A stretch of 64,000 nucleotides of DNA from a virus: positions 36,523 through 100,522 of IMG/VR virus record IMGVR_UViG_3300035565_000044; one strand, given 5' to 3'. Position numbers and translations under genes: made by a program. The notes under the pieces are model-generated. The model did no database searches. It was not told the origin of the DNA and saw nothing but the letters and a program-made list of their open reading frames with translations. Below, piece after piece: positions 12,059 through 49,614 of this stretch; positions within the stretch are counted from its first letter, which is position 1, and the number at the start of each line of letters is the position of its first letter.

Positions 12059-12302
12059 GTGGCTAGGAAGTCGATTACAACGTCTTGTGAACGCTAACAT
12101 CGCCTCCGCTTTCCCCCGGCGTCTGAATTTTTGTGTCGTGGCTAGGGATACGATTACATCTTCTATAGACAAGAAGACTTGCTTGGTTCGATTCCGAGCT
12201 CCCCCACCATCTACGGGGGAGTGTCCAGGGTGGACAGTCGTTATCGTCCCCGCTTTTTCCCGACGCAACTTAATTCAGTGGAGTGGCTAGATTTCCGATT
12301 AC
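12059..12302 (+). repeat. three copies of a GTGGCTAG-N5-CGATTACA element
   Basis: GTGGCTAG, five variable bases, CGATTACA occurs at 12059, 12138 and 12282. The second copy forms the 5' strand of the Y-RNA-like RNA's terminal stem. The third runs into the tRNA at 12301, where GATTT and GATTAC pair with AAATC and GTAATC beyond the tRNA 3' end. The region 11936-12553 has no protein gene. Confidence 0.6.
12135..12252 (+). ncRNA. Y-RNA-like RNA (YrlA type) upstream of the Ro60 gene
   Basis: About 118 bases that fold as bacterial Y RNAs do. The ends pair: GGG-AT-ACGAT (12145-12154) with ATCGT-C-CCC (12243-12251), leaving a small asymmetric internal loop. Inside, the order is a T-arm (CTTGG-TTCGATT-CCGAG), an acceptor-like hairpin (TCCCCC/GGGGGA, 12200-12220) and a D-arm-like hairpin (TGTCC-AGGG-TGGACA). 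This is the permuted tRNA mimic known from YrlA RNAs, which dock on Ro60. A TROVE/Ro60 gene follows 300 bases downstream. The exact Ro60 contact bases are not confirmed. Confidence 0.65.
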
Positions 12303-12373
12303 AACGATAGCTCAGTTGGTAGAGCAACAGACTTCATATCTGTAAGTCGTAGGTTCAAACCCTACTCGTTATC
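12301..12373 (+). tRNA. tRNA with predicted anticodon TCA
   Basis: 73 bases: acceptor ACAACGA/TCGTTAT (one mismatch), D arm GCTC-AGTTGGTA-GAGC, anticodon stem ACAGA/TCTGT, T arm GTAGG-TTCAAAC-CCTAC. The 7-base loop CTTCATA puts TCA at 34-36, which would read UGA; U37 is unusual. Flanking sequences GATTT..GATTAC and GTAATC..AAATC pair across it. UGA is used as a normal stop throughout the window, so wholesale recoding is excluded. Confidence 0.65.
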
Positions 12374-12426
12374 CCGTAAGGGGTAATCCATCGTAAATCG
12401 TTTTTCCCTCCACTGCTTTAAACAGG

Positions 12427-12553: not shown

Positions 12554-13960
12554 ATGGCTCGTACTAATACTAGGACCAGAGCGCCACGCCCTCTGACGCA
12601 TGAAGGCGCTCCAGCCGATAGGATCACAAAAGAGCAAGAGTTGCGCCGCTCTGTGTCTTGCTGCCTGCTTTGGGAGAATGAATTCTATGAAAGCGGTGAA
12701 GACATTGCTAGCCGCATCAGGCGTCTCGCGCTGGAATGTTCTCCTCAATTTGTGTCTAATCTTGCTATTGATGTTCGCAATCGTCTTCACCTTCGTCACG
12801 TTCCTCTTTGGCTGCTTTGCGCTTTGGCTAAAACTGGAACTGGAATTCCGGGGCTTGTGGGGAATACTGTAGCACAAACCATCCAACGCCCAGACGAAAT
12901 TCCTGAGCTTTTGGCGCAGTATTACAAGGCCAATGGCGTTGCTATTAAGGATAAGGGCGGAAAGATCAACAAGATCAAGATGCCTAAGCAATTCAAGAAT
13001 GGTATCGCGCGAGCCTTCACTAAGTTCAACGAGTACTCGCTGGATAAGTGGAACAAAGACGGCGATATCTCCTTGAAATACGCCATGCGCGGCGTCCATC
13101 CAAAGCCAAAGGATGAGGCTCAGGCTCAGTTGTGGGCTAAGCTTTTGGGTAAGGAAGATAAGGAAACTGGCAAGTCTCAGAAGCTTAAGACGGCAGATAC
13201 AGTCATGTCCGCCTTGAGCGCTGGAAAAGAAAAGAAAACAGCAGAAGATAAGAAAACTGTTTTCGAGCGCCAGTTGCGTGAAGGAAAGATTGGATATTTC
13301 GCGTTATTGAAGAACTTGCGCGGGATGGTTGATGCTGGCGTTGACAGGCAGCTCGTTATTGACGCATTGCGCGCTAGGAAGGGAGACAAGGGAATTTTGC
13401 CGTTTCGCTATGTTTCCGCTGCGCGGGCGGCGCCAACGTATGAACCATATGTTGATGAAGCTCTTCAGCACGCGATTAAGAGCAGCAGGGAACTTCCAGG
13501 GCATACTTGGGTGCTTGTTGACGTTAGCGGCTCCATGGACGCCAGTATCTCTGCAAAGAGTGATCTTAGCCGGATAGACGCCGCTGCGGCTCTGGCGTCT
13601 CTGATTCACGGAGACAGAACAGTTATTACGTTCAGCAATGAAATAAAAGTTGTTCCAAGTCGCCACGGTATGGCTGGAATTGAGGCTATTCTCAAGAGCC
13701 AGATTCATAGCGGTACTGAGATGGGAAGGGCCATAAAGTATGTGAATGATCGCGCCAAGCCCCAAGATCGGCTTATCGTGATCACTGACGAACAGAGCGG
13801 GGATGTCGTCCCTGATCCAGTTTGCCAGAACGCATACGTCATAAATGTTGCGTCCTACCGCAATGGCGTCAGTTACGGCCATGGATGGAACCATATTGAC
13901 GGTTGGAGCGAAGCCGTGATAGATTACATTCATGAGCATGAGGCTACGCTTAAATTGTAG
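12554..13960 (+). CDS. rsr: Ro60-like TROVE/vWA RNA-binding protein
   Basis: 468 residues. Residues ~1-280 are a TROVE-type helical-repeat ring (HLRHVPLWLLCALAKT, AFTKFNEYSLDKW, KYAMRGVHPKPKD). Residues ~290-468 are the vWA domain with an intact MIDAS (LVDVSGSMD, T in SGTEMGRAI, D in IVITDEQSGD). Bacterial Ro60/Rsr binds Y RNAs and misfolded or structured RNA and links them to nucleases. The Y-RNA-like gene just upstream completes the pair. RBS GAAAGGAAAGAAA. A parS-like palindrome overlaps the stop codon. Confidence 0.9.
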   Translation: MARTNTRTRAPRPLTHEGAPADRITKEQELRRSVSCCLLWENEFYESGEDIASRIRRLALECSPQFVSNLAIDVRNRLHLRHVPLWLLCALAKTGTGIPGLVGNTVAQTIQRPDEIPELLAQYYKANGVAIKDKGGKINKIKMPKQFKNGIARAFTKFNEYSLDKWNKDGDISLKYAMRGVHPKPKDEAQAQLWAKLLGKEDKETGKSQKLKTADTVMSALSAGKEKKTAEDKKTVFERQLREGKIGYFALLKNLRGMVDAGVDRQLVIDALRARKGDKGILPFRYVSAARAAPTYEPYVDEALQHAIKSSRELPGHTWVLVDVSGSMDASISAKSDLSRIDAAAALASLIHGDRTVITFSNEIKVVPSRHGMAGIEAILKSQIHSGTEMGRAIKYVNDRAKPQDRLIVITDEQSGDVVPDPVCQNAYVINVASYRNGVSYGHGWNHIDGWSEAVIDYIHEHEATLKL

Positions 13961-21682: not shown

Positions 21683-22693
21683 CTAATTGCCGTGTACAAG
21701 CGCCCTTGTGACGTTGTCAAAGAAACTCAACTCAAGGCCAAGCTCCCTTGCAATCCTTACGCTTTCAGCGCGTTCAATCAAATGACAACCGGCCTTTATG
21801 TCGCCATTGGGATAAACGCAATTGACGGTAAAAGAACCTACGCGTTTATTGATCTCGAACGTACTAACGATTCTCATAGAGCTTAGAAGCTTGTCCGTGG
21901 TTTTAAACAGCTCCACAGCTTCACTAAGAGGGACACGGGCGCCGAGTGATGTTTCTAACGTGTCGCCCTTCACTCTGAGATATGCGCCGCCGCTTGGCGT
22001 CTTGAAGCCTTCCCAAGGCAACCTGACGTGAGCGCCTTTCATCCATTCCGTTAACGCCTCAAGTTGCGACAGCCTAAGCAGGCGCTCTTGTTCGGTCTTG
22101 GCATCCAGTCGTTTCTTCTCACGCTTAGCGCGGGCAGCAACCTTCTTTGGATCGTTCGCCGCAAGGGCTAGGCGCTCAAATCTGGCGTTAATACGCGCCC
22201 AGTCGGCGCCGTAGTCGATTGCAGGTTCTTCAAGGTCGAATATGAGACAATATCCGGAAACGTCTCCACGGGAGCGCAAAAGAAAATTCCGCCCGTATTG
22301 GTTCCATTCGTCAGATTTTATCGCGCGTTCATATCTGTTAACGCCTGCTCTGTATTGACTTACAAGGTAATCAATGTTTTCCTTGTGCCTTATCCTGCTA
22401 TCTCCGAAATCTGGCTCAATCCAAGGGACGACATAGCTGTGAACAAGATGCTTAGTCGCCACTTGTGCAAGGCCGAAATGTTTACTTGTAGAGTTAGACC
22501 GATTGCGCGCTGCAATGTTAAGAAGTACAACTGATATATCATCTTTTTTTATGATATTTGCTATATTCATTGCGTATGAATATAATTTTGTTCCTAAAAA
22601 AGATATTGTGTTTTTAGCGTTGTTCGCTTCATCCTGCGTTTGCGCCGCCCACAAATGCGCAACCATTGCTGAGTTAACTACTTTACGAGTCAT
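21683..22693 (-). CDS. conserved phage hypothetical protein
   Basis: 336 residues. The start (MTRKVVNSAMVAHLWAAQTQ, then TISFLGTKLYSYAMNIA) is a pattern I have seen in phage proteins of unknown function. A long charged helix (ARAKREKKRLDAKTEQERLL) lies in the middle and a beta-rich C-terminus follows. RBS GAAAGGAAAGACT. Confidence 0.6.
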   Translation of the reverse strand: MTRKVVNSAMVAHLWAAQTQDEANNAKNTISFLGTKLYSYAMNIANIIKKDDISVVLLNIAARNRSNSTSKHFGLAQVATKHLVHSYVVPWIEPDFGDSRIRHKENIDYLVSQYRAGVNRYERAIKSDEWNQYGRNFLLRSRGDVSGYCLIFDLEEPAIDYGADWARINARFERLALAANDPKKVAARAKREKKRLDAKTEQERLLRLSQLEALTEWMKGAHVRLPWEGFKTPSGGAYLRVKGDTLETSLGARVPLSEAVELFKTTDKLLSSMRIVSTFEINKRVGSFTVNCVYPNGDIKAGCHLIERAESVRIARELGLELSFFDNVTRALVHGN

Positions 22694-22727
22694 AGTCTTT
22701 CCTTTCTTGAGTTAACGTCTACACGCT

Positions 22728-22754
22728 AGCAGCCACAGCGGCGCCATGGCTGCT
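22728..22754 (-). terminator. intergenic hairpin
   Basis: AGCAGCCA/TGGCTGCT, 8 bp perfect, 11-base loop, between genes 22774 and 22693. Confidence 0.5.
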
Positions 22755-22773
22755 AACATTTAGGCATTATCTC

Positions 22774-23659: not shown

Positions 23660-23670
23660 AAAACCATGCT

Positions 23671-23696
23671 AACGCCCATGCCACGGCATAGGCGTT
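23671..23696 (-). terminator. intergenic hairpin
   Basis: AACGCCCATGCC/GGCATAGGCGTT, 12 bp with one mismatch and a 2-base loop, between genes 23715 and 23631. Confidence 0.5.
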
Positions 23697-23714
23697 AACA
23701 TTGTTCTGTTACCT

Positions 23715-24150: not shown

Positions 24151-24178
24151 GCGCTTTCCTTTCTTGCTAGGGTTACTA

Positions 24179-24201
24179 AATTGGGCGAATTTCGCCCAAT
24201 T
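24179..24201 (-). terminator. perfect intergenic hairpin
   Basis: AATTGGGCG-AATTT-CGCCCAATT, 9 bp, 10 bases after the stop of 24214-24441. Confidence 0.6.
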
Positions 24202-24213
24202 GGATAATCCCAG

Positions 24214-24441
24214 CTATTCAGGTAACGCCCTAAGCGCCTTGTACGTAGGCTTACCTTTGCCGCCTATAGCCTTCCATGCGGCGTCTGCGGCGTCTCCATC
24301 CTTGCACCAGTTATTCCCTACGCCTGTTATGGTATCCCTGACGCCACCCATAAAGCGCTCTAGACGCATGGCGTCTTGCGCCCATGGATAACGTTTTAGG
24401 AGTTCTGCACGTAGGGCGACTAAAAATCCTGTTCTGGTCAT
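24214..24441 (-). CDS. hypothetical protein
   Basis: 75 residues, helical start (TGFLVALRAELLKRYPWAQD) and a Gly/Asp-rich centre. Unrecognised. RBS GAAAGGAAAGCG. Confidence 0.5.
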   Translation of the reverse strand: MTRTGFLVALRAELLKRYPWAQDAMRLERFMGGVRDTITGVGNNWCKDGDAADAAWKAIGGKGKPTYKALRALPE

Positions 24442-24495
24442 ACGCTTTCCTTTCTAGCTTGGTTAAATGAGCTTATTTCTGTGGGCTGGCGCCTG

Positions 24496-24747
24496 TTACA
24501 ACTGAAAATAGTTGTGCGGTTTATATTCTGGATTAACTTCGTTTTGCATAAACGCGCACCACGTATCAGCATCGCGCAGAAGTCCTATGCGCTCAATAAC
24601 ACTAGCTGTGTCACAGAGCACGCGAGCTTTATCCGCGCTAGGCGCTTCTGCCATCTCCTCAATGGTCCGCATGTAGAGCGGACAAACAAATTCCTTTAAT
24701 GGCTTAACCATTGCTAGAATTACGATGGCTTTAACAACTTCATCCAT
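24496..24747 (-). CDS. hypothetical protein
   Basis: 83 residues; ATG overlaps the upstream stop (TGATG). The N-terminus MDEVVKAIVILAMVKP may be a short hydrophobic helix. Stop codon 2 bases from the left arm of module A. Confidence 0.5.
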   Translation of the reverse strand: MDEVVKAIVILAMVKPLKEFVCPLYMRTIEEMAEAPSADKARVLCDTASVIERIGLLRDADTWCAFMQNEVNPEYKPHNYFQL

Positions 24748-25241
24748 CACAGAACCAATTCCCCATCTGCATCAACAATGTTAGTCAAACATGTAAGAAA
24801 CGTATCTGCTATGTACTCTTTTATGTCTCTGTAGTTTTTACCAGTGACTTTTATGTTAATTTCGCCAAAGCATGGCGTTACTATTACTGTGTGGTCCGTC
24901 CATCCACAGTAATAACCGTTGCTATTCATGTGATGAAATGCAGTGATAAAGATAAGCTTGTCATCTGTTGACTTGTCAAAGTTAAACTGCGTTCCCTTGT
25001 CAAAACCACTACCGCTAGGCATATGCGCCTTGCATGCGTGCTCAATGGCGTGTAAGTGGCCATGAAAGTTTTGATATAAATGCTCAGCTTGCTTTTGCGT
25101 TTGCTTGGCGTTGTAGTTATCGCCTTTGGCTTCATATGCCTTGCTTCTGCATTCCGCTTCTGCCTCTAACTTTCCGCAGTTGCGCATGGCGTTAGCCTTC
25201 AGCGCCATGTAATAGTACAGCGGTTTGTTATGGAGTATCAT
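24747..25241 (-). CDS. hypothetical His/Cys-containing protein
   Basis: 164 residues. Helical N-terminal half rich in Gln/Glu (AEAECRSKAYEAKGDNYNA); beta-rich end (HTVIVTPCFGEINIKV). Cys and His residues are scattered. Unrecognised. Confidence 0.5.
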   Translation of the reverse strand: MILHNKPLYYYMALKANAMRNCGKLEAEAECRSKAYEAKGDNYNAKQTQKQAEHLYQNFHGHLHAIEHACKAHMPSGSGFDKGTQFNFDKSTDDKLIFITAFHHMNSNGYYCGWTDHTVIVTPCFGEINIKVTGKNYRDIKEYIADTFLTCLTNIVDADGELVL

Positions 25242-25473
25242 AGGTTACTAATCCTTTCTTGCGCGGCCTTCCATGATACCAATAATAAGCCTGTTGGCCC
25301 AATGGGCCACGCGTGACTTTGAACTTACAATCAGGCTCATTTTTCCGATATATTTTAAGCCATATTTCTGTTGTTCCATCGGTTAGCGTCATGACTAGAC
25401 GCCAACAGTTAGGCTTGGGCGCACGGGGATTGTAGCGCCATAGCCTTTCATAACTGGCGTATTCTATCGCCAT
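25228..25473 (-). CDS. hypothetical protein
   Basis: 81 residues, Tyr/Trp/Arg-rich, one beta hairpin (WRLVMTLTDGTTEIWLKI). First gene of module A, 20 bases after the right arm. Confidence 0.5.
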   Translation of the reverse strand: MAIEYASYERLWRYNPRAPKPNCWRLVMTLTDGTTEIWLKIYRKNEPDCKFKVTRGPLGQQAYYWYHGRPRKKGLVTYDTP

Positions 25474-25520
25474 GGCTTGCCTTCCTTAGCGTAAGGCGCC
25501 GCCCACAGAAATAAGCTCAT

Positions 25521-26926
25521 ATCTAGGCATGCAATCTTAGAGCCTCATTGCGCTAGGCTAGTTAGATGTTAGTCTGAGAACTTGGCAAGAAGTGAATAAG
25601 CAGCAAACTCGTATTCGCGGCGTTTTTCCTGAATACGAATAGTTTTTGCAGCTTCTGTTAACGCCTCATGCGCATCAAACACAGTTTCTATTGGATGCTG
25701 ATTAGCATTGAAACCAATCTGCATAATCTTCTGCGTTTCTCCCTTGCCAATGGCTCTAACAAAAAGGCGCTGCAAGAAATGCATTCTCGCCTCGTCTTTG
25801 TCATCATTCTTTTTGGAGTCAGTGATAGCCTTAATTCTTTCATTCTTCATTCCAGTTACCTGTTTAATGAAGGATGAAATTTCTAGAGCGCTATCAAATA
25901 TCTCGTCAGATTGACGGTTAATGCGCAGATTACCATTTTTGGTATGGTTAATCCGATGGGTTTTCTTCCCCATGACGCCACGCAAAGAAAGATTACAGCA
26001 TACGCCTTGCAGCATCATACCTGTGAACCACGTAGACTGTGATTTTACCTCACTTCCACCAAACATTAAGCCTGGAAAGAATATATCAGGTAAACCACGA
26101 CGCGTTTTTCCTATCTCTATAGGGTGGCCGTCTTGACATACAAAACACTGCATATCTTCCGGCCCCATAAAGAGACTGTTCTGCGCGTCCATATCATAGG
26201 GGTTATGCTCCATTGTTCCCCAGTTGATTTTTCCTGGAGTTTTCCACTTGAGCGGATTATTAGCCGTCAAATCACCTAGCAATGGGCGCAGCGCCCGCAA
26301 GAGTTGGGCGTTTGTCGTCCGTGTTTCTGGCGTAAACGCCAGCGAGCGCAATTCCCGTATGTCACCTTCGCCCCCATCCGCCGTGTACGCCGTTATTTTA
26401 GCGTCGGGCGCCAAATCCTTTAAACCTTCACGCAGAATTCTAGCCGCCCGTTTTGCATCGGGCAGCTTACGTAAATAGTTAGCTGGGATAGGCGTTTCCG
26501 CCGCTGCACATAACTGTGTAAACGCTAAATGCGTTGGATCGACGGGGATATATTCCCCCCTATGATTTGGAATAATAATTTCCATGCTATCTGACACGAC
26601 AATGTTGTGAATGTTCACTGTGTTGTCGTGGGAAATGCTTTCCCAATGCTCAGCGGCGTTTAAAAGTTCGTCAAACGATGAAAACGTTTCATCGTCAGGA
26701 CGCGTCGCCCATTGCTTAGACATGCTCCAGTCTACATCACCCATACGGTCAGGATTGACCTTATAAGCTCCAGATACACGGCGCCCGTCATAGACAGGCT
26801 TAGTGTCCGCAACAACGTCAAACTTAGCGTCAATGATGGCTGGATTGTTGTTAGTCATGATTGCATTTCCTCTTGTGATAGATTGTGAGAAAGAAACGCA
26901 ATGAGGCTATAGGATTGCATGCTAGG
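25521..26926 (-). repeat. inverted-repeat-bracketed module B
   Basis: The left arm 25521-25556 and right arm 26897-26926 share GCAATGAGGCT and GATTGCATGC cores in inverted order, about 27 of 30 bases matching. They bracket the DUF932-like gene. The last bases of the right arm double as the start of the module C left arm. Confidence 0.8.
25569..26858 (-). CDS. DUF932 family phage/plasmid-like protein
   Basis: 429 residues. Features I associate with DUF932: HIVVSDSMEIIIPNHRGEY, HLAFTQLCAAAETPIPANYL, a mid-domain with LRSLAFTPETRTTNAQLLRA, and a GSEVKSQSTWFTGMMLQGVCC segment. The family is common in phages and plasmids; its biochemical role is unknown, and an anti-restriction or DNA-binding role has been guessed from context. 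Sole gene of module B. Confidence 0.75.
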   Translation of the reverse strand: MTNNNPAIIDAKFDVVADTKPVYDGRRVSGAYKVNPDRMGDVDWSMSKQWATRPDDETFSSFDELLNAAEHWESISHDNTVNIHNIVVSDSMEIIIPNHRGEYIPVDPTHLAFTQLCAAAETPIPANYLRKLPDAKRAARILREGLKDLAPDAKITAYTADGGEGDIRELRSLAFTPETRTTNAQLLRALRPLLGDLTANNPLKWKTPGKINWGTMEHNPYDMDAQNSLFMGPEDMQCFVCQDGHPIEIGKTRRGLPDIFFPGLMFGGSEVKSQSTWFTGMMLQGVCCNLSLRGVMGKKTHRINHTKNGNLRINRQSDEIFDSALEISSFIKQVTGMKNERIKAITDSKKNDDKDEARMHFLQRLFVRAIGKGETQKIMQIGFNANQHPIETVFDAHEALTEAAKTIRIQEKRREYEFAAYSLLAKFSD

Positions 26927-26963
26927 CTAGATACGGACTTGCTATTGCTGGCGCCAGTGTGGG

Positions 26964-27152
26964 TTATTTCTCAAGAATTTTATGCAATGGCTTCATTACA
27001 TGCTTAACCAATTCATTCTTTGCCATCACAAGATTTGTACGGCAAAGCAATGGCAATCCAGGTATTTGTAACACCTGTTCTATCATGTAGGTTGAACGCT
27101 CAACCCACTTGATAACCATGGATATTTGCGCCCGTTCTTCGCCGTCTATCAT
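26964..27152 (-). CDS. hypothetical helical protein
   Basis: 62 residues, two predicted helices (ERAQISMVIKWVERSTYM, NLVMAKNELVKHVMKPLHK). Start overlaps the upstream stop by 4 bases. Confidence 0.5.
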   Translation of the reverse strand: MIDGEERAQISMVIKWVERSTYMIEQVLQIPGLPLLCRTNLVMAKNELVKHVMKPLHKILEK

Positions 27153-27625
27153 TGGCTTTTCTTCCTAGCAACTTTACACATGCGCGCGCTATTGTTTTCG
27201 CTGACGCTGCACTCAATAAGAAAACTCATATACTTAGCTTTCCTATGGATAATTAACTCTAAATGGTCGCAGTGAAGGCCAGATTTTTTAGTGCAACCGT
27301 TATTACCGGCGCCTGCTTTCCAGAATAGGGTTAATTCATCGCCAGTCTTAAGCAGTGATACCACGGTTGACCATACGCTATCACAGCGTGATGCATGGTT
27401 CATTTCGAATGCATTCTCTATTTCATAGTCATAATTATACATTCCGTCATAATTATAACCATAAATAACAGTACTGGTATTGCACTCTATTATATGTATT
27501 TGCTCGAATGGATTAGTATCGCTTTGTCTCTTAATTGCTTCGATTGTTGATGTTCCGTTAATATAGCGGAACACTACATCATTGCATTGTTTAAGAGCGA
27601 TTAAATCCGCTTTACTTACTTCCAT
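27149..27625 (-). CDS. hypothetical protein
   Basis: 158 residues from MEVSKADLIALKQCND; GGAAAGGACGCCAGAA precedes the ATG and a parS-type site lies 20 bases upstream. Beta-rich middle (IHIIECNTSTVIYGYNYDG). Unrecognised. Confidence 0.55.
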   Translation of the reverse strand: MEVSKADLIALKQCNDVVFRYINGTSTIEAIKRQSDTNPFEQIHIIECNTSTVIYGYNYDGMYNYDYEIENAFEMNHASRCDSVWSTVVSLLKTGDELTLFWKAGAGNNGCTKKSGLHCDHLELIIHRKAKYMSFLIECSVSENNSARMCKVARKKSQ

Positions 27626-27644
27626 TTCTGGCGTCCTTTCCTGT

Positions 27645-27658
27645 GTTTCACGTGAATT
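27645..27658. promoter_or_regulatory. parS-type palindrome (two mismatches)
   Basis: GTTTCACGTGAATT: perfect left half and core, the last two bases differ. Confidence 0.5.
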
Positions 27659-27889
27659 CTCACTACGTGAGGGAAAAGGCGCCAGCAATAGCAAGCCCAT
27701 ATCTAGCCTATTAAGCTAGATACAAGCTTATAAGTCACCTATCCCCTTATCGCACAAGAGGATAGGCAATCGTTTACGATATCAATGATCGATATATGGG
27801 GAATTTTCCTGTTGATTTATGCAGAAAAGTGTTGCTTTTCTTAGACTTATACCACATTGCGCGGTATAATTGCGTAACAACACAAGATA

Positions 27890-27919
27890 ACGTCTATACC
27901 TATGGCATAGGCGTTATCG
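27890..27919 (-). terminator. intergenic hairpin in module D
   Basis: GATAACG-T-CTAT pairs with ATAG-G-CGTTATC, about 11 bp, 8 bases past the stop of 27928-28101 on the minus strand. Confidence 0.5.
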
Positions 27920-27927
27920 TTTTGTTG

Positions 27928-28101
27928 TCATGCTAATTTGGTTTTGTCTATGAGATAGAACACTGTGAACTTATCACTTATGGTTCTATTCCTAGCTCTT
28001 CTGTTGAGTAACCAACAGATTAACCTTGCGACGCGAGAATTTCTATATTCTGAGTACAGATATTCTGTGTCGTTTTCGTAGGCTATAATCATGTATCTCA
28101 T
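27928..28101 (-). CDS. small basic protein
   Basis: 57 residues: MRYMIIAYENDTEYLYSEYR at the start, then a basic middle (RVARLICWLLNRRARNR) and DKFTVFYLIDK. AGGTGATAAT precedes the ATG. Supported by its fit in module D. Confidence 0.5.
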   Translation of the reverse strand: MRYMIIAYENDTEYLYSEYRNSRVARLICWLLNRRARNRTISDKFTVFYLIDKTKLA

Positions 28102-28109
28102 ATTATCAC

Positions 28110-28196
28110 CTATGCCAGAATGATAATTGCGCTAAAGAACGCAAAGGCGCTTAGCAATACGCCTATAGTGGCGCACAACAGGCAATCAATAATCAT
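28110..28196 (-). CDS. possible single-span membrane micro-protein
   Basis: 28 residues, nearly all hydrophobic (CLLCATIGVLLSAFAFFSAI). The ATG lies 8 bases inside the end of the preceding gene. A longer frame to 28406 in the same phase overlaps the real gene 28186-28545 and is less likely. Weakly supported. Confidence 0.35.
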   Translation of the reverse strand: MIIDCLLCATIGVLLSAFAFFSAIIILA

Positions 28197-28545
28197 ATCT
28201 AACCCTATCCCCAAAATACCTAGCGTTTTTATGAGTCGCCTTACGCGTCGCTCTGAATACGTCCTTACGGACCATGCGTTGTCTAACGTATGGCCTAGGA
28301 TATGAGCGCTTTCGCCTAGGTTTAGGCTTAGGATAGTATCGCCAAGGCTTAGGCTTAGGGAGGCATAGGACGGGCGCCGGTCTGGAGCGTTTGATATCGT
28401 CAACAAGCCAAATTATGATATATATCATAATCGCTGGATAGATAATGATAACCGCGTATGGCGCCGTTTCAATTATACCGCCTAGGATGAAAAAGCCTAT
28501 AAAGCCTGTCGTCACATAGGACAGTATTTTTGGAATATCGTTCAT
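28186..28545 (-). CDS. membrane protein with basic cytoplasmic tail
   Basis: 119 residues. Two N-terminal membrane helices (ILSYVTTGFIGFFILGGI and YAVIIIYPAIMIYIIIWLV), then a strongly basic Pro/Arg/Lys tail (PKPKPRRKRSYPRPYVRQR). RBS AGGAGAAATGAC. Topology suggests an inner-membrane protein with a nucleic-acid or membrane-surface-binding tail. Confidence 0.65.
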   Translation of the reverse strand: MNDIPKILSYVTTGFIGFFILGGIIETAPYAVIIIYPAIMIYIIIWLVDDIKRSRPAPVLCLPKPKPWRYYPKPKPRRKRSYPRPYVRQRMVRKDVFRATRKATHKNARYFGDRVRYDY

Positions 28546-28625
28546 GTCATTTCTCCTATATTGGTTAACCGCATAGCCTACTATATGCAGACTATGAAGT
28601 TAACCAACAAAGGAAAATTCCCCAT

Positions 28626-29074
28626 GGACACTAGCGCCTTAGATTGTACGCCATTGGCGTTTGTTATCTTAAACCATACCACACTTTAACGGAATAACCG
28701 CTATGTTTAGTCGCTTTAACCTTCTCTTTAAATTCCTCTATAGCTGACTCTCTACAATTAGCTTTAGAGTTAACAAGCTTAGGCGTTGCATATCTGTCGT
28801 CAAACTTTAACATTTCAGTGAATAATGCAGGTGACCCTAAAGCAGTATTCAAGCTAAGCGTTGTTAAGCGCGGTTGCTTTCTTGGCTCAATAACCATAAT
28901 GGCAGTTGCAGGTTTAGGTATGCATGTATTCCATTCCCTTGTCGGAGCATGGCCGTCAAATATGACTGTCACCATATACTCACCAACAGGCAAGGCGCCT
29001 TTAGTCCATTCTGTTAAGCTCATTGTATCGCCTTTCTATACGCGCATGGCGTACAGTCAAAGGCGCTAGTGTCC
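28626..29074 (-). repeat. inverted-repeat-bracketed module E
   Basis: Left arm 28626-28659 and right arm 29041-29074, 34 bases each, about 30 matching in inverted order; the core is GGACACTAGCGCCTT and its complement. They bracket a single gene. Both ends abut neighbouring arms (D and F) with zero spacing. Confidence 0.85.
28664..29023 (-). CDS. hypothetical protein
   Basis: 119 residues, beta-rich start (VGEYMVTVIFDGHAP) and a helical, Lys-rich end. Only gene of module E; its stop is 4 bases from the left arm. Unrecognised. Confidence 0.55.
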   Translation of the reverse strand: MSLTEWTKGALPVGEYMVTVIFDGHAPTREWNTCIPKPATAIMVIEPRKQPRLTTLSLNTALGSPALFTEMLKFDDRYATPKLVNSKANCRESAIEEFKEKVKATKHSGYSVKVWYGLR

Positions 29075-29117
29075 ACAACGTATCAGGCTTATCAATGGGC
29101 GCCGGGGGATTACATTA

Positions 29118-29381
29118 TTATGGTATTTCCACGTAGTCTCTATATGGAAATGATGGGGTTATGATTTCCCCCTCATAATCGCTAAACCTTTCTGCATACA
29201 ACATGGCGCTATCTTTATTTTCATAGCGCGCAACCTTGTATGTTATTTCTCCATTTGGGTTGCTTATATGCCATACGCCTAGCGGCGTATTGGCATTAAA
29301 GCCTAACGGAGGCGTTTTACTTCCATAGAATGAACCATGATTAGATTCTCTATGTTGCGAGTTGCATAGATAATATGACAT
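29118..29381 (-). CDS. hypothetical protein
   Basis: 87 residues from MSYYLCNSQHRESN (AAGGCGCC before the ATG, 10 bases after the upstream stop); a longer start at 29426 would overlap the upstream gene. Beta-rich, with TPLGVWHISNPNGEITYKV. Unrecognised. Confidence 0.5.
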   Translation of the reverse strand: MSYYLCNSQHRESNHGSFYGSKTPPLGFNANTPLGVWHISNPNGEITYKVARYENKDSAMLYAERFSDYEGEIITPSFPYRDYVEIP

Positions 29382-29391
29382 GTCGGGCGCC

Positions 29392-29955
29392 TTAACTATG
29401 TTGAATACTTTCCCACAAGTTAACAATGCGATTTTTAGCGTTTAAGGCGTAATCAAGCCTATACGCTTCCGCCATGCTTAGGGACTTAAGGTTGTTTGTG
29501 GTATAAATTCCGTGGTCCAAAAGTTTTATTTTGACTAGAGCGTTTATTTCCAATCCTTCGAAATTTGGTTCTACGCGTTTAAACCACCACAGGCGCCGCT
29601 TTGCGATGACATGTAACAACATTTGAATTGCATGTTCTGGCGTATCGCCAAAACCAACGCCCATACTACTCATGGACGTTGCTTTCCATATGCCATCAAA
29701 CGTTGTTTTTATGTCTATGTCTCTATTTTCTTCAGGATGCGGAAACCATGGCTCAAATGGACTTGTATCAAGATACATACATTCCATATCGAATAGTCTA
29801 GTATCCCCGCAATAGTTGCAATCTTTGCCATCTACCTGTGAAATTTGCACGTTGCCTATTTCAACTTCGATATATGGATAGTTTTCATTTATCCACTTGG
29901 CGAAATCTTCGACACGTGTCATGTCATCAGATAGAACTATCTTCGATATTTTCAT
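29392..29955 (-). CDS. hypothetical protein
   Basis: 187 residues. The N-terminal half includes DCNYCGDTRLFDMECMY and SMSSMGVGFGDTPEHAIQML, the latter resembling the end of small conserved phage proteins. RBS GGAAAGGTTTTGAT. Unrecognised. Confidence 0.55.
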   Translation of the reverse strand: MKISKIVLSDDMTRVEDFAKWINENYPYIEVEIGNVQISQVDGKDCNYCGDTRLFDMECMYLDTSPFEPWFPHPEENRDIDIKTTFDGIWKATSMSSMGVGFGDTPEHAIQMLLHVIAKRRLWWFKRVEPNFEGLEINALVKIKLLDHGIYTTNNLKSLSMAEAYRLDYALNAKNRIVNLWESIQHS

Positions 29956-30061
29956 ATCAAAACCTTTCCTTAGGCTATGGCGCCCATAGAAAAGCCTGAT
30001 ACGTTGTAAACTCGTTAGCCGTTATAGCGATTGATGCTTACATCTAGGCGCTAGGTTGAGC

Positions 30062-30286
30062 CTATATGCCGTATGTGTCGCGCCTTAGGCGGCGCAGCAT
30101 AACCATAGTGTAGAATGAATTGCGTTCACTAAACGCCGCATGACGCGCATGAAGGTCAAATAAGCGTCCATCATTACGAGCACGTAGCGCGCGCATGACG
30201 CGTAGTCTAATGGTTAGACGCCTTTCTTGCGCCGCCATTATTTCATGCGTGCGCGTGGCATAGGCGCTAGGATTAGATAAACCCAT
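30062..30286 (-). CDS. small Arg-rich protein
   Basis: 74 residues from MGLSNPSAYATRTHE (AAAAGGGCG before the ATG). Very basic (RRLTIRLRVMRALRARN, LRRLRRDTYGI). Overlaps its neighbour by 14 bases. Nucleic-acid binding is plausible only from charge. Confidence 0.5.
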   Translation of the reverse strand: MGLSNPSAYATRTHEIMAAQERRLTIRLRVMRALRARNDGRLFDLHARHAAFSERNSFYTMVMLRRLRRDTYGI

Positions 30287-30497
30287 CGTAAACGCCCTTT
30301 TCACGCCAGAATTTATGAAGATTAAGCCAATGCCTTGCCATGTCTTTGGCGCCGCTTAGCCGTGCTTCGTGCGCATACTGGATTAGTCTAAACGCTTGCG
30401 CCCTTACATTCTCTGTAGGGTTTTTACGCAAGTTGTAGCGTGTACAGCGTTTATACCAATCGCTGTAAACCCCATCTTCAGGATTATATGAGTACAT
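30273..30497 (-). CDS. hypothetical protein
   Basis: 74 residues, Tyr/Arg-rich with a helical end (GAKDMARHWLNLHKFWREKG). First gene of module G. Confidence 0.5.
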   Translation of the reverse strand: MYSYNPEDGVYSDWYKRCTRYNLRKNPTENVRAQAFRLIQYAHEARLSGAKDMARHWLNLHKFWREKGVYDGFI

Positions 30498-30582
30498 TCT
30501 AGTCGCCTGTCTTGAGTTAAGCGCCTAGGTGAAAGCATCAATCACATTTGGGGTTTACATCTATACGCCAATGGCGTGTTAG

Positions 30583-30813
30583 TTAGTCTAGTATTTGTGG
30601 ATTGGCGGCAATCAGCGCCTTAGCGTAAGCCTTGCGCGCTTTATGCAAGTTAGAAGTTAATATTTGCGCGTCAACACATAGGCGCTGTTTAGATGTAAGG
30701 AATGAACCTTCCGGATTATCACCAAAAGAGTCAATAGCTCTTATTGTGTTGCGCAAATCTACATGCAATCGCACAAGATTTTCTTCTAATTCCCACAATG
30801 GAGTGTTTATCAT
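30583..30813 (-). CDS. hypothetical helical protein
   Basis: 76 residues, two or three helices (LEENLVRLHVDLRNTIRAID). ATG overlaps the upstream stop as ATGA. Unrecognised. Confidence 0.5.
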   Translation of the reverse strand: MINTPLWELEENLVRLHVDLRNTIRAIDSFGDNPEGSFLTSKQRLCVDAQILTSNLHKARKAYAKALIAANPQILD

Positions 30814-31049
30814 TTACCGCGACCATTATTAGGCTTAAGCGTTATCCATCCGTCTAGATCAATGCCTTGCGCATATTCATCGAATAGCGCTTGCATCAAT
30901 TCTTGGCGTAGCTTGTGGCGCGTAGCTTGCAAAGCGCAACTGGCGTTATATGCTCCAATTGCAACGTTGCTAAGCTCACTCAGCGCTTTATTGATAGCGC
31001 ATAAGTCAGCTTCTACTAAGTGTATTAGGCGTATATCTCTATCTCTCAT
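30810..31049 (-). CDS. hypothetical helical protein
   Basis: 79 residues, helical (DLCAINKALSELSNVAIGAY) with a polar end. First gene of module H. It may be distantly related to its neighbour by general plan, but identity is not evident. Confidence 0.5.
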   Translation of the reverse strand: MRDRDIRLIHLVEADLCAINKALSELSNVAIGAYNASCALQATRHKLRQELMQALFDEYAQGIDLDGWITLKPNNGRGK

Positions 31050-31156
31050 AATTTACCCCTTACGCGCGTGGCGTATAGGTGAAAACCCCAAATGCTAGCC
31101 GTGATTAATAAGCGATTGATCTAGTAATGAGCCTAGAATTGCTGGCGTATGTTAAA

Positions 31157-31483
31157 CTAACGGACGCCACCACGTAGAAAAGACGGAAGAAACGATGATA
31201 TGAACGGAGGCTCATACCAATCTAAATTTCCCGGTTTTTTCCAGGAAAGGCTATGCTTTCCTTCTGCCAAAGCGCGCTTTAGACGCTTTAGGCGCTTTTT
31301 ACAAACGCGTGGCGTATGTTGACGCCATGCGCGTTTAGCGGCTTTCTTTGCTCTGTTCTGGTTTTTATTCCAGAATTCCGCCAATGGTTCGTCACACATT
31401 TGCGCATAGTCATCCACATAGATGCTATATCCATGCAACATTCCATCGAACTTAGGAGCTCTGTATTCAAGTATGTAAGCCAT
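31157..31483 (-). CDS. hypothetical basic protein
   Basis: 108 residues from MAYILEYRAPKFDG, coupled to the upstream stop as TAATG. Middle is strongly basic (NRAKKAAKRAWRQHTPRV, KKRLKRLKRALAEGK). Confidence 0.5.
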   Translation of the reverse strand: MAYILEYRAPKFDGMLHGYSIYVDDYAQMCDEPLAEFWNKNQNRAKKAAKRAWRQHTPRVCKKRLKRLKRALAEGKHSLSWKKPGNLDWYEPPFISSFLPSFLRGGVR

Positions 31484-31749
31484 TATAACCACCTATTAAC
31501 TTTGGCGTTATAACCGTGCGCTAATCTTGTGTATAACTCTTCTTTTTTACGCCAAACATTGCGGCGCACGCGCTTTTCTGATACTATACCCTTTGTGCAA
31601 TCTCGGACTACGCGAGTTTCTACATAGTCTAGATTGCCCCAATAGTCGCGATAAACGCGCCACATAACTTTGTTATTAGGGCGTATTCTCGCATAATCCT
31701 TAGCATAGTACGACAGAAGCGGATTATTCATTCTCATGTTTTCTATCAT
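31483..31749 (-). CDS. hypothetical protein
   Basis: 88 residues, Arg/Tyr-rich (VMWRVYRDYWGNLDYVETRV). AAGAAAGACT precedes the ATG. First gene of the leftward bracketed series. Confidence 0.5.
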   Translation of the reverse strand: MIENMRMNNPLLSYYAKDYARIRPNNKVMWRVYRDYWGNLDYVETRVVRDCTKGIVSEKRVRRNVWRKKEELYTRLAHGYNAKVNRWL

Positions 31750-31823
31750 TGCTTAGTCTTTCTTGAGACGCCAGCAATTCAAGACTCATTACAGCTTAAG
31801 CCACGGATTAGCCGCTTAATACA

Positions 31824-31876
31824 TTTGGTTAACTCGCTGGCGCCCACACAAGACGCGTTCGGCATTGTTAACCAAA
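31824..31876. repeat. large perfect hairpin
   Basis: TTTGGTTAAC (31824-31833) and GTTAACCAAA (31867-31876), 10 of 10 bp around a 33-base loop, just outside module I. A similar GTTAACC dyad (28561-28606) precedes the right arm of module D. Confidence 0.6.
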
Positions 31877-33056
31877 GATTAAAAGCATACGGATCATTGA
31901 CAAGAGAATGACGGGATAGAGATTGCCACGGGCAACGCCTCACACGGCGCCGACAGCATAGTGACAATCCGCCCCATAGCACACATTCCCTAGTGTGGCT
32001 TTAGCTGGATCAATCGCCCATTAACCTAAACGGCTAACGAGTCATATTAACGATGTCAAAGAATGCAGGTGTTAACGTGACAAGTTGCGCTAATCTGGCG
32101 CTGCCACTACAGTTAAGAGACAATGGGTTGCGTTAGAGTTATCGCCAGTCTTGGGGCTTTCCATCCCTATTGGCGATTATGGGCTAGGCGCTGCTTACGC
32201 TCTGATACTGGCCTAAGCCTAGCTCGGAGCTTGGTTCTGACACTAGGCGCTTCGCAGCGGCTTTTGCCAATCTCGCCAGCGACGTTTGCCGTCTGACAAA
32301 AACCAGAAACGGCTTTTTCAGCTTCGCTTCAAGGAAAAAACATCCGAATCGGATGAAAAAGAAACAGAGCTGTGGATAACTTGTGGTCAAAAGCGGAACA
32401 TTTTTCAAAGATGAATGTTCGCGTCGCTCAGAGCTCGGAAAAATAGGCGCGCTTTGCGGTGTAAAGTGGAAAAAAGTTGGCGCGCAAGTTATTGATTTGG
32501 TTGATGCGGAAAAGCGGAGTTCATGATGCGTTTAGCATATGTCTGACAGGCAAGCGGCGCATTGGGGATAAGACGGCGCAAGGCGCGTAGTCGATGCACA
32601 GAGCGAGCGGAGCAAGGCCAAAGGCGGCGCACACAAGGCAAAAGCTGCATGCTACGTAGAACGCCGTTCAAGGCATGCTACACAGGCGAAAGCTCATAGA
32701 GCTATGTCACCATAGCTAAAGGCGCAAACGCCAGTGTGGGCGCAAATGTGGAGTGAACCATATGAAGGTGGACGCGAGCGCAGCAAGACAAGCGCAGACT
32801 GCGGCAAAGGCGTAGGCGATTGAAGAACGCGAGCGCATGACGCGCATGTTCATTATACATATGGTATGCATCAGTAAATGCGAATGTTTTCAAGCGTGAT
32901 AAAAGCGTGAATACGAATGTGTGAATATGTAAACGTTTGTGTTTTTGAATGCGCGCAGCGCGGTCTAGGCGCTTTCTAAGAGACACATAGACATACGGAA
33001 CTTAGAAAGCGCTGATACTCTAATATCTAAACATATGAGAATGATGATATGTGATT

Positions 33057-33070
33057 GTTTCATGTGAAAC
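33057..33070. promoter_or_regulatory. parS-like palindrome (CATGTG core)
   Basis: GTTTCATGTGAAAC, the only site of this family in the gene-free region, about 40 bases from the AT-rich repeats. Confidence 0.55.
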
Positions 33071-33094
33071 GCTAAAGGCGCAGATAGAAGCAAG

Positions 33095-33180
33095 GTATGC
33101 AGATATGCGAAAATGCATATGTTAATGTGTTAAGATATGCAGATATGCATAGTTTAGTATGTTAAGATGTGTAAGTGTTT
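33095..33180. repeat. AT-rich short direct repeats
   Basis: TATGCAGATATGC occurs at 33096 and 33135; ATGTTAA(T)GTGTTAAGAT and ATGTTAAGATGTG occur beside them. Short iterated AT-rich words in a divergent region are typical of replication origins, but no initiator-binding motif is known for this phage. Confidence 0.5.
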
Positions 33181-33708
33181 GAAAATTAATGAGTTTGCAT
33201 GTTTTTGGGAGGGGAAATTTGGGGGGAACATGCGCACGACACTCTGGATTGTACCGTTCGGTACAGTGAACCAATGTAATAACATAACATCGCAAACCTT
33301 TGATATTACATAATAAAGCTTATGCGAATTGGGCATTTAGGTCAGCATTACTGACCTATTTTCTGGTATGGCCCATGATTCTACCCGGATAGAATTGCTT
33401 ATATCGTACAATCTAGATATGTAGATGTATTAATAACTTACTAATAGTTGCGTGTATTGCTATTACACTTCTATCTAAAGCTGAGCTGTGCACCTATAAG
33501 TTACATTCAGGACCCGTAATGTAACCTGTGGTGGGTGGGGGGTGGTTGCGCAACGCCGGGACCCAGTGCCAGGAGTCCCATCCCCTATACGACAAAAACC
33601 CTTCCGAGGCATCCGATTCGGATAGACATCCCCCTTCAAATCTGCTAGTCTCCACCCTTCCAAGCACTCCTGCTCGTTTCTCCAGAGGCGCTGTTAGAAG
33701 AAAAATTC

Positions 33709-48423: not shown

Positions 48424-48499
48424 TGGTGCCAGTTGCAGGCTTCGAACCCACGACCCCCGTCTTACAAGGACGATGCTCTACCAACTGAGCTAAACTGGC
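48424..48499 (-). tRNA. tRNA-Thr (TGT)
   Basis: Complete cloverleaf: acceptor GCCAGTT/AACTGGC, anticodon loop CTTGTAA, T loop TTCGAAG, encoded CCA. Anticodon TGT. Confidence 0.92.
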
Positions 48500-48513
48500 A
48501 TTCCACGTGAAAT
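48500..48513. promoter_or_regulatory. parS-type palindrome (outer bases differ)
   Basis: ATTCCACGTGAAAT between tRNA-Thr and tRNA-Pro; the 12-base core TTCCACGTGAAA matches the consensus. Confidence 0.5.
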
Positions 48514-48589
48514 GGTCGGAGAAACAGGAATCGAACCTACAACCCCTAGCTCCCAAAGCTAGTGCTCTACCAGATTGAGCTATTCTCCG
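48513..48589 (-). tRNA. tRNA-Pro (TGG)
   Basis: Acceptor CGGAGAA/TTCTCCG, anticodon stem CTAGC/GCTAG with loop TTTGGGA, T loop TTCGATT, encoded CCA. Anticodon TGG. Confidence 0.92.
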
Positions 48590-48625
48590 CCTATGCTTAT
48601 TCTAAGTATACCAACAAAAATTTAG

Positions 48626-48697
48626 AAGTCCAGTGGAGAATCGAACTCCAATCAGGCGGTTATGAGCCGCCAGCTTTAACCGTTAAGCTACAGGACC
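48626..48697 (-). tRNA. tRNA-Met-type (CAT)
   Basis: Acceptor GGTCCTG/CTGGACT (one mismatch), D arm GCTT-AACGGTTA-AAGC, anticodon stem GGCGG/CCGCC with loop CTCATAA, T arm TGGAG-TTCGATT-CTCCA. Elongator Met or lysidine Ile; no CCA encoded. Confidence 0.85.
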
Positions 48698-48790
48698 ATA
48701 AGACTACGCTGAGAAGCAATTACAGCACCGAAACTCTATCAGAGCTAAGGCTATAGTAGGCTGTAACAACCCCTCAGCGTAAGATATGAG

Positions 48791-48894
48791 TGGTGATCAG
48801 GACTGGGTTTCCCCATTTTCTTGCTCTAGCCGTCCACCCGTATGACAGTCCTACATGGCGCACAGGTGCTGCAATTCCTCTTTCGAGCCTGATA
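48791..48894 (-). ncRNA. tRNA-like RNA with CCA end (oversized, degenerate)
   Basis: Minus strand, 104 bases: 5' TATCAGG pairs with CCTGATC (6 of 7) followed by A and CCA, as in a tRNA. Inside are two GAAA-type hairpins (CTC-GAAA-GAG and TGGG-GAAA-CCCA) instead of standard D and T arms. Extended pairing upstream (AGACTA/TAGTCT, GCGCCA/TGGCGC, 48905-48968) suggests a larger fold. Function unknown. Confidence 0.35.
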
Positions 48895-48989
48895 AAGCCA
48901 CTCTAGAAGCGCCAGACTAGGGTGAGATGGCGCCCGTCCGTCAATCACCGGAGTTCGCCCCTTAGTCTGTCGCTGCTACAATGGCTTGT

Positions 48990-49088
48990 AGCCCAGAGAA
49001 GGATTCTAACCTTCCTCCCCACCGTCAGGGTCAATTACTCCCTCGTGTGTCGCATGGGGACGCAACATTTCCAGCAGTTGCTCTGGAC
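48990..49088 (-). ncRNA. tRNA-like RNA with enlarged anticodon region
   Basis: Minus strand, 99 bases: perfect-pairing acceptor GTCCAGA/TCTGGGC (one wobble), D-like arm GCAAC/GTTGC with a GG-containing loop, T arm GAAGG-TTAGAAT-CCTTC. Between D and T arms are about 46 bases where 22 are normal, including GTCCCC/GGGGAG closure and GGG/CCC. T loop has A at the usual C56. Not a standard tRNA. Confidence 0.4.
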
Positions 49089-49150
49089 ATAAGCTGAATA
49101 CGTCAACGGCGTACTCGAATGCTACCTCTACACATGGCAGAGAAGACTGG

Positions 49151-49222
49151 CTGGCAAGACTGGATTCGAACCAGTAACCTACGCCTTAACAGGGCGACGC
49201 ACTACCATTGTGCTACTTGCCA
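49151..49222 (-). tRNA. tRNA-Asn (GTT)
   Basis: Acceptor TGGCAAG/CTTGCCA, D arm GCAC-AATGGTA-GTGC, loop CTGTTAA, T arm ACTGG-TTCGAAT-CCAGT. Anticodon GTT. Confidence 0.92.
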
Positions 49223-49308
49223 AAAGTAAGTAATACTGCTACAGCTAACATCATAATTAATAGCGCTATTATTATCCCAGCGCAACCCTGAACTTCTCTA
49301 TCTGGCAT
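49213..49308 (-). CDS. possible single-span membrane micro-protein
   Basis: 31 residues with one span (GIIIALLIMMLAVAVLLTFG). Weak AGAGA upstream. It overlaps the 5' end of tRNA-Asn by 10 bases. Coding is uncertain. Confidence 0.35.
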   Translation of the reverse strand: MPDREVQGCAGIIIALLIMMLAVAVLLTFGK

Positions 49309-49324
49309 TGTAATATCTCTTTTT

Positions 49325-49523
49325 TGGTGGAGCCGGGGGGATTCGAACCCCCATGAGCCGGAACCTTGGCCAAGCATCACTGCACTAACAGTCATACAAT
49401 TCCAAGGCATATAGTCTTATAAACTGCGTGCTTACCCAGTGAAATTGGGACTATAATTTAATCCAGCCTGTCTTTCGACACCGCTTCAGTTTAGCGGCGC
49501 ATTCACCGTTGTGCTGCGGCTCC
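49325..49523 (-). ncRNA. tRNA-like RNA of about 199 bases
   Basis: Minus strand. Perfect acceptor GGAGCCG/CGGCTCC, discriminator A, encoded CCA, canonical T arm GGGGG-TTCGAAT-CCCCC, and a D-like arm with AACGGTGAAT. About 120 extra bases lie between D and T arms, with stems CCGCT/AGCGG, GACAGG-region and TATAGTC/GACTATA. Options: a tRNA with an unusual insert, a tRNA-like regulatory RNA, or a tmRNA-like remnant (no tag ORF and no G3-U70 pair were seen). Confidence 0.45.
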
Positions 49524-49530
49524 GTATTGG

Positions 49531-49614
49531 TGGGCGCCGGTGGAATCGAACCACCCATGGACGCAATGCCTACGGATTTACAGTCCGTTCCCTTCTCCAG
49601 TTGGGTAGACGCCC
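49531..49614 (-). tRNA. tRNA-Tyr (GTA)
   Basis: 84 bases with a long variable arm as expected for Tyr: acceptor GGGCGTC/GGCGCCC, anticodon stem ACGGA/TCCGT with loop CTGTAAA, T arm GGTGG-TTCGATT-CCACC. Anticodon GTA. Confidence 0.92.

Follow-up and report, generated by a model that had tools for sequence, protein, structure and literature searches.

Why should nine consecutive groups of phage genes each lie between the arms of an inverted repeat of their own? The question is raised by a 64,000-nucleotide stretch of virus DNA (the window; bases 36,523–100,522 of the 100,522-base IMG/VR record IMGVR_UViG_3300035565_000044, with positions below counted from the start of the window), in which leftward gene modules, here named A to I, follow one another between 24.4 and 31.8 kb. 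A sequence-only reading of the window had proposed that the arms pair in the messenger RNA (mRNA), closing each module into a panhandle that is cut by RNase III or simply kept folded, which would give every module a stability or dosage of its own, and had offered module-swapping boundaries as the alternative. The array is genuine, far from random and highly regular, and it is best read as RNA. Judged from its sequence, it appears to be a novel means of partitioning or protecting phage messages. The sequence-only reading knew of no precedent, and a literature search, with most subscription papers outside its reach, likewise found no phage genes each framed by mRNA panhandles.

Nine private inverted repeats

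The window and two fetched pieces were assembled into the whole record, which was searched for inverted pairs 100–2500 nucleotides (nt) apart, scoring +1 for a match and −2 for a mismatch. All eight pairs with a score of at least 18 fall inside the array, which occupies about 7.3 kb; the module D pair is a 15/15 perfect match with a score of 15, and two further pairs, scoring 15–16, lie outside. The array pairs are nearly all of the long-distance inverted repeats of the 100.5-kb record. Among 60 Markov-resampled genomes a score of 18 was reached once and was otherwise at most 16, while scores of at least 15 occurred at most once per genome. This independent search recovered the nine pairs where the sequence-only reading had placed them, with ends off by 0–2 bases in most pairs. 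The ungapped core of module A is 20 nt long (24467–24486/25501–25520) and is extended past a 1-nt bulge; that of module B is 25527–25552/26897–26922.

The longest stretches common to the arms of different modules measure 9–10 nt and join H with G and I with C: the core TTTCACCTA occurs in the arms of G and H and ATTGCTGGCG in those of I and C, the arms being otherwise dissimilar. The G and H stems, compared by inspection rather than by an alignment-based test, differ on both sides of their common core with pairing kept, a pattern suggestive of compensatory change.

Placement of the arms relative to genes

With the longest sensible leftward reading frames chosen, each module encloses one to three whole genes and the arms lie outside the frames, in agreement with the proposal. 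The 3' arms start 2–15 nt past the last stop codon, except in module D (about 118 nt), and the 5' arms stop shortly before the start codon, with a purine-rich ribosome-binding stretch just inside the stem. Leaders are longer in B, C and D, and those of C and D also contain a local hairpin. Neighbouring arms adjoin, as had been described, with no gap at A/B, D/E and E/F, an overlap at B/C and 1–2 nt at G/H; the remaining gaps are about 86–88 nt (C/D), 21 nt (F/G) and 30 nt (H/I). The added claim that no promoter fits at these junctions was too strong, since a promoter could overlap an arm. Sigma-70-like sites are not in excess on 19–34 kb, with 30 found against 29.4 expected. Two local hairpins were seen outside the array among further leftward genes, at 24155–24225 (between genes 24441–24214 and 24150–23932) and at 22709–22773.

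A symmetric flaw common to seven stems

The stems have a further feature that the sequence-only reading did not mention. In modules B, C, E, F, G, H and I, the 5' arm departs from the reverse complement of the 3' arm at exactly two positions, always with a spacing of three. The resulting layout of a weak pair, two Watson-Crick pairs and a weak pair has two-fold symmetry around a 2-bp core (positions in Table 1); A and D have no such flaw and carry a bulge instead. On the transcribed strand the fourteen weak pairs comprise six U-U, four C-A, three G-U or U-G and one U-C. A-A is absent there, and the six U-U, which are all six of the like-with-like mismatches, would be A-A on the other strand. 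Under random placement, a spacing of three in all seven two-flaw stems would have a probability of about 6e-9, a figure that is only descriptive because the pattern was noticed before being tested. The shared flaw supports selected RNA panhandles. Its recurrence across otherwise unrelated stems argues against chance or recombination boundaries and suggests a structural signal that a double-strand-specific nuclease or binding protein could recognise. A role for the weak positions in pairing with the ribosome-binding site was considered and discarded, as it fits E and F only.

Predicted folding of the leftward RNA

The leftward transcript was folded as three multi-module sections, and all nine stems appear in the predicted minimum-energy folds. 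The panhandle is also kept in whole-module folds, where the coding sequence competes for pairing. Arm-arm duplex energies range from −30 to −67 kcal/mol, and pairing between a module's own 5' and 3' arms averages −42.2 kcal/mol, as against −12.8 kcal/mol when modules are swapped. The stems, about 22–36 pairs long, have the length of double-stranded RNA expected of an RNase III substrate (about 20 bp or more). The proposal that each module's RNA would close as a panhandle is well supported by predicted thermodynamics and by the ninefold recurrence of one architecture in unlike sequences, and such folding is probably a selected property.

Cut messages or closed messages

From the arms, their positions, the flaw and the predicted folds, we infer a scheme in which the leftward early genes would be copied from near 32 kb as one transcript. 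In the cell this RNA would fold module by module: the leader preceding the first ribosome-binding site would pair with the segment just past the last stop codon, enclosing the genes in a loop, with the site itself a short way inside the stem. A host nuclease specific for double-stranded RNA, most likely RNase III, would then cut each stem mid-way, which in seven stems means at the symmetric step. The nine short mRNAs so released would have their two ends joined by the remaining inner half of the stem and would be protected by it. Taken whole, from the single early transcript and its nine panhandles to mid-stem cutting and protected ends, the scheme has in our judgement an even chance of being right. 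If the stems form and are either cut or kept closed, RNA shape alone would split one transcript into separate messages with protected ends. More tentatively, the operon might be regarded as a chain of mRNA modules that each close on themselves, the message borders being set by private 5'-3' stems and their symmetric two-pair step, through cutting or closure and independently of promoters and terminators.

In the icaR mRNA of Staphylococcus aureus the 3' untranslated region (UTR) reportedly covers the ribosome-binding site, whereas the arms described here end upstream of that site. The likeness lies in the pairing of 3' UTR with 5' UTR within one mRNA, which in icaR affects both translation and RNase III cutting (PMC3868564). 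The pre-16S and pre-23S ribosomal RNAs (rRNAs) also have a long segment closed by a long-distance stem, which RNase III cuts; here, by contrast, the closed segments are mRNAs, nine in a row, with private arms and, in most, a common symmetric flaw. The early mRNA of phage T7 is likewise a polycistronic phage RNA, and RNase III cuts it between genes (R1.1, described in PMC8708148); the T7 sites are local hairpins between genes, whereas the present stems close over genes. RNase III of Bacillus subtilis cuts long-range intramolecular mRNA duplexes of 10–36 bp with partners up to 505 nt apart, and 34 of 38 co-occurring mRNA sites have their cuts 2 bp apart (PMC11780869). That spacing equals the spacing of the flaw in seven stems, which makes a mid-stem cut attractive. 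The B. subtilis sites are scattered, single and paired around the cut (PMC11780869), in contrast to a contiguous array with spans of 0.45–1.4 kb and weak pairs at that very spacing.

Several observations weigh against the cutting scheme. Were the stems cut at the flaw, the two cuts 2 bp apart would be flanked by mismatched or wobble pairs, which would be unusual because more than 90% of B. subtilis sites are paired near the RNase III cuts, with similar pairing in Escherichia coli (PMC11780869). Among the pre-23S stems of a few alphaproteobacteria, Leisingera alone shows a mismatch, two pairs and a mismatch; the flaw is not general in this small sample, in which some ends are uncertain. Duplex energy totals are about equal for plus- and minus-strand RNA, and folding alone is no proof of the relevant strand because the plus strand would fold equally, by complementarity; strand assignment by counting wobble pairs was tried and did not tell plus from minus. 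Searches through the proteins of module B, gene 21683–22693, the portal, the TROVE-like gene and module A yielded no relative with the array. No comparable private array was found in 139 related loci (2.1 Mb) or in 80 further early-region loci (1.27 Mb) fetched via the module A protein; the scans yielded only single pairs or shared-palindrome families, and in several of the 80 loci a single palindrome recurs between genes. The array is thus on record from a single genome.

No recognisable RNase III was found among the phage proteins, no RtcB was noticed among the translated open reading frames (ORFs), and Rfam returned nothing relevant. Host-specific cutting rules are possible, since the pre-23S rRNA of Rhodobacter capsulatus is cut by its own RNase III, whereas the E. 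coli enzyme is reported to be unable to process it (PMC8708148). The suggestion of RNase III cutting made in the sequence-only reading thus keeps its plausibility from documented long-range duplex cuts of matching spacing, and loses some of it to a flaw placed where known sites are paired, to a phage with no recognisable RNase III and to a motif that is not general in pre-23S stems. The flaw could mark an RNase III cut or block cutting; that the enzyme cuts there falls, in our estimate, slightly short of an even chance.

If the central flaw stops RNase III, closed and stable mRNAs would be the end product, an outcome favoured by the weak pairs, which occupy positions that are paired at known RNase III sites (PMC11780869). 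A variant would have the 5' leader alone hide the ribosome-binding site in a local hairpin until the 3' arm displaces it, so that only complete messages are translated. In the predictions, a 5' leader by itself tends to pair over the ribosome-binding site, an effect clearest in F, E, D and C. Predicted accessibility of the site rises with the 3' arm in all nine modules (from 0.13 to 0.74 in F and from 0.44 to 0.72 in A), though hardly in I, H and G, and pairing of a site with its own leader is stronger than with swapped leaders (mean −13.6 versus −10.3 kcal/mol, permutation p 0.006), mostly owing to F and E. The gain in accessibility is, however, small in most modules and partly trivial, because engaging a competing partner frees other bases; in I, H, G, A and B the leader hairpins have ordinary energies compared with shuffles, and the weak positions show no consistent pairing to the ribosome-binding site. 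Uncut panhandles as the end product are possible, at a rather low probability, and a translation switch, for which the modelled evidence is uneven, appears doubtful.

Readings at the level of DNA fare less well. Arms that serve as recombination or module-exchange sites, or that are remnants of separate element insertions, would explain why they coincide with module borders and why some abut exactly. A recombination cassette would have the same site sequence at successive borders; here there is no shared site, because every pair has its own sequence, and all modules have one orientation while the two-flaw spacing recurs in unrelated arms. Module swapping, the alternative put forward originally, is accordingly disfavoured by arms that are private, inverted and marked by a common flaw, and DNA-level boundaries seem very improbable. 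About equally improbable is a role for the arms as scattered intergenic palindromes that work as DNA operators or promoters, for which other phages with the module A gene offer a parallel: palindromes of the GTTAACCTTAAC type do repeat between genes in related early regions (L166, which is Brevundimonas phage Kabachok, L174, L188 and L205), but there one palindromic sequence serves each phage, whereas the arms here are private and complementary only to their partner. Chance or an assembly artefact might be suspected in a single metagenomic record and is hardly credible in view of the shuffle tests, the placement at gene borders and the shared flaw.

Coordinates and flanking regions

Table 1. 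Modules of the array and flanking features (window positions; weak pairs counted from the outer end of the stem)
Feature	Coordinates	Strand	Arms, pairing and contents
Module I	31124..31792	-	arms 31124-31148 / 31768-31792, 25 nt; weak pairs 9 and 12; ORFs 31749-31483 and 31492-31157
Module H	30545..31094	-	arms 30545-30577 / 31062-31094, core 26 nt; weak pairs 13 and 16; two ORFs
Module G	30029..30543	-	arms 30029-30052 / 30520-30543, 24 nt; weak pairs 12 and 15; two ORFs
Module F	29075..30007	-	arms 29075-29103 / 29979-30007, 29 nt; weak pairs 17 and 20; two ORFs
Module E	28625..29075	-	arms 28625-28660 / 29040-29075, core 30 nt; weak pairs 17 and 20; one ORF
Module D	27796..28625	-	arms 27796-27810 / 28611-28625, 15 nt perfect, then 2-nt bulge and 8 pairs in RNA; two or three ORFs
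Module C	26923..27710	-	arms 26923-26955 / 27678-27710, 33 nt; G-U pairs 12 and 15, fully paired as minus-strand RNA; two ORFs
Module B	25521..26926	-	arms 25521-25556 / 26897-26926, core 26 nt; weak pairs 11 and 14; one 429-aa ORF (DUF932-like relatives, phrog_1362)
Module A	24467..25520	-	arms 24467-24494 / 25494-25520, 20 nt perfect, 1-nt bulge, 7 more pairs; three ORFs
Terminator-like hairpin, which probably closes the leftward unit downstream of modules I-A and three more genes	23666..23701	-	16 pairs followed by a T-rich tail; identified by pattern match alone
About 1.9 kb lacking convincing genes, separating the leftward from the rightward genes	31793..33700	.	ORF list and GC-skew change near 32 kb

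The region 31793–33700 is likely to be the start region of the leftward transcript, to judge from its layout. Lying between divergent gene blocks at the change in GC skew, it may be an early promoter region or a replication origin.

Relatives and gene contents

Two IMG/VR fragments encode portal proteins about 77–83% identical to that of this phage, and another matches the TROVE-like gene (96% over 91 residues); none of the three covers the array. More distant portal relatives occur in assemblies of Phenylobacterium, Leisingera, Sphingomonas and a Paracoccus metagenome-assembled genome, among other taxa, which suggests an alphaproteobacterial host. Most module proteins tested had no family match. 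The module B protein resembles DUF932-type phage proteins, module C matches phrog_27970, and the module A early-region protein has relatives in phages of alphaproteobacteria and Achromobacter. One record with a module C relative (L171, Brevibacillus phage Jenst, 13395–14822) carries an annotated RtcB RNA ligase as well, at a distance of about 5 kb. Elsewhere in the window, 12554–13960 encodes a TROVE/Ro60-like RNA-binding protein with a vWA domain, with relatives in Caulobacter, Brevundimonas and Xanthomonas phages. ARAGORN reports a selenocysteine-type tRNA (tca) at 12301–12375 and five minus-strand tRNAs at 48424–49614.
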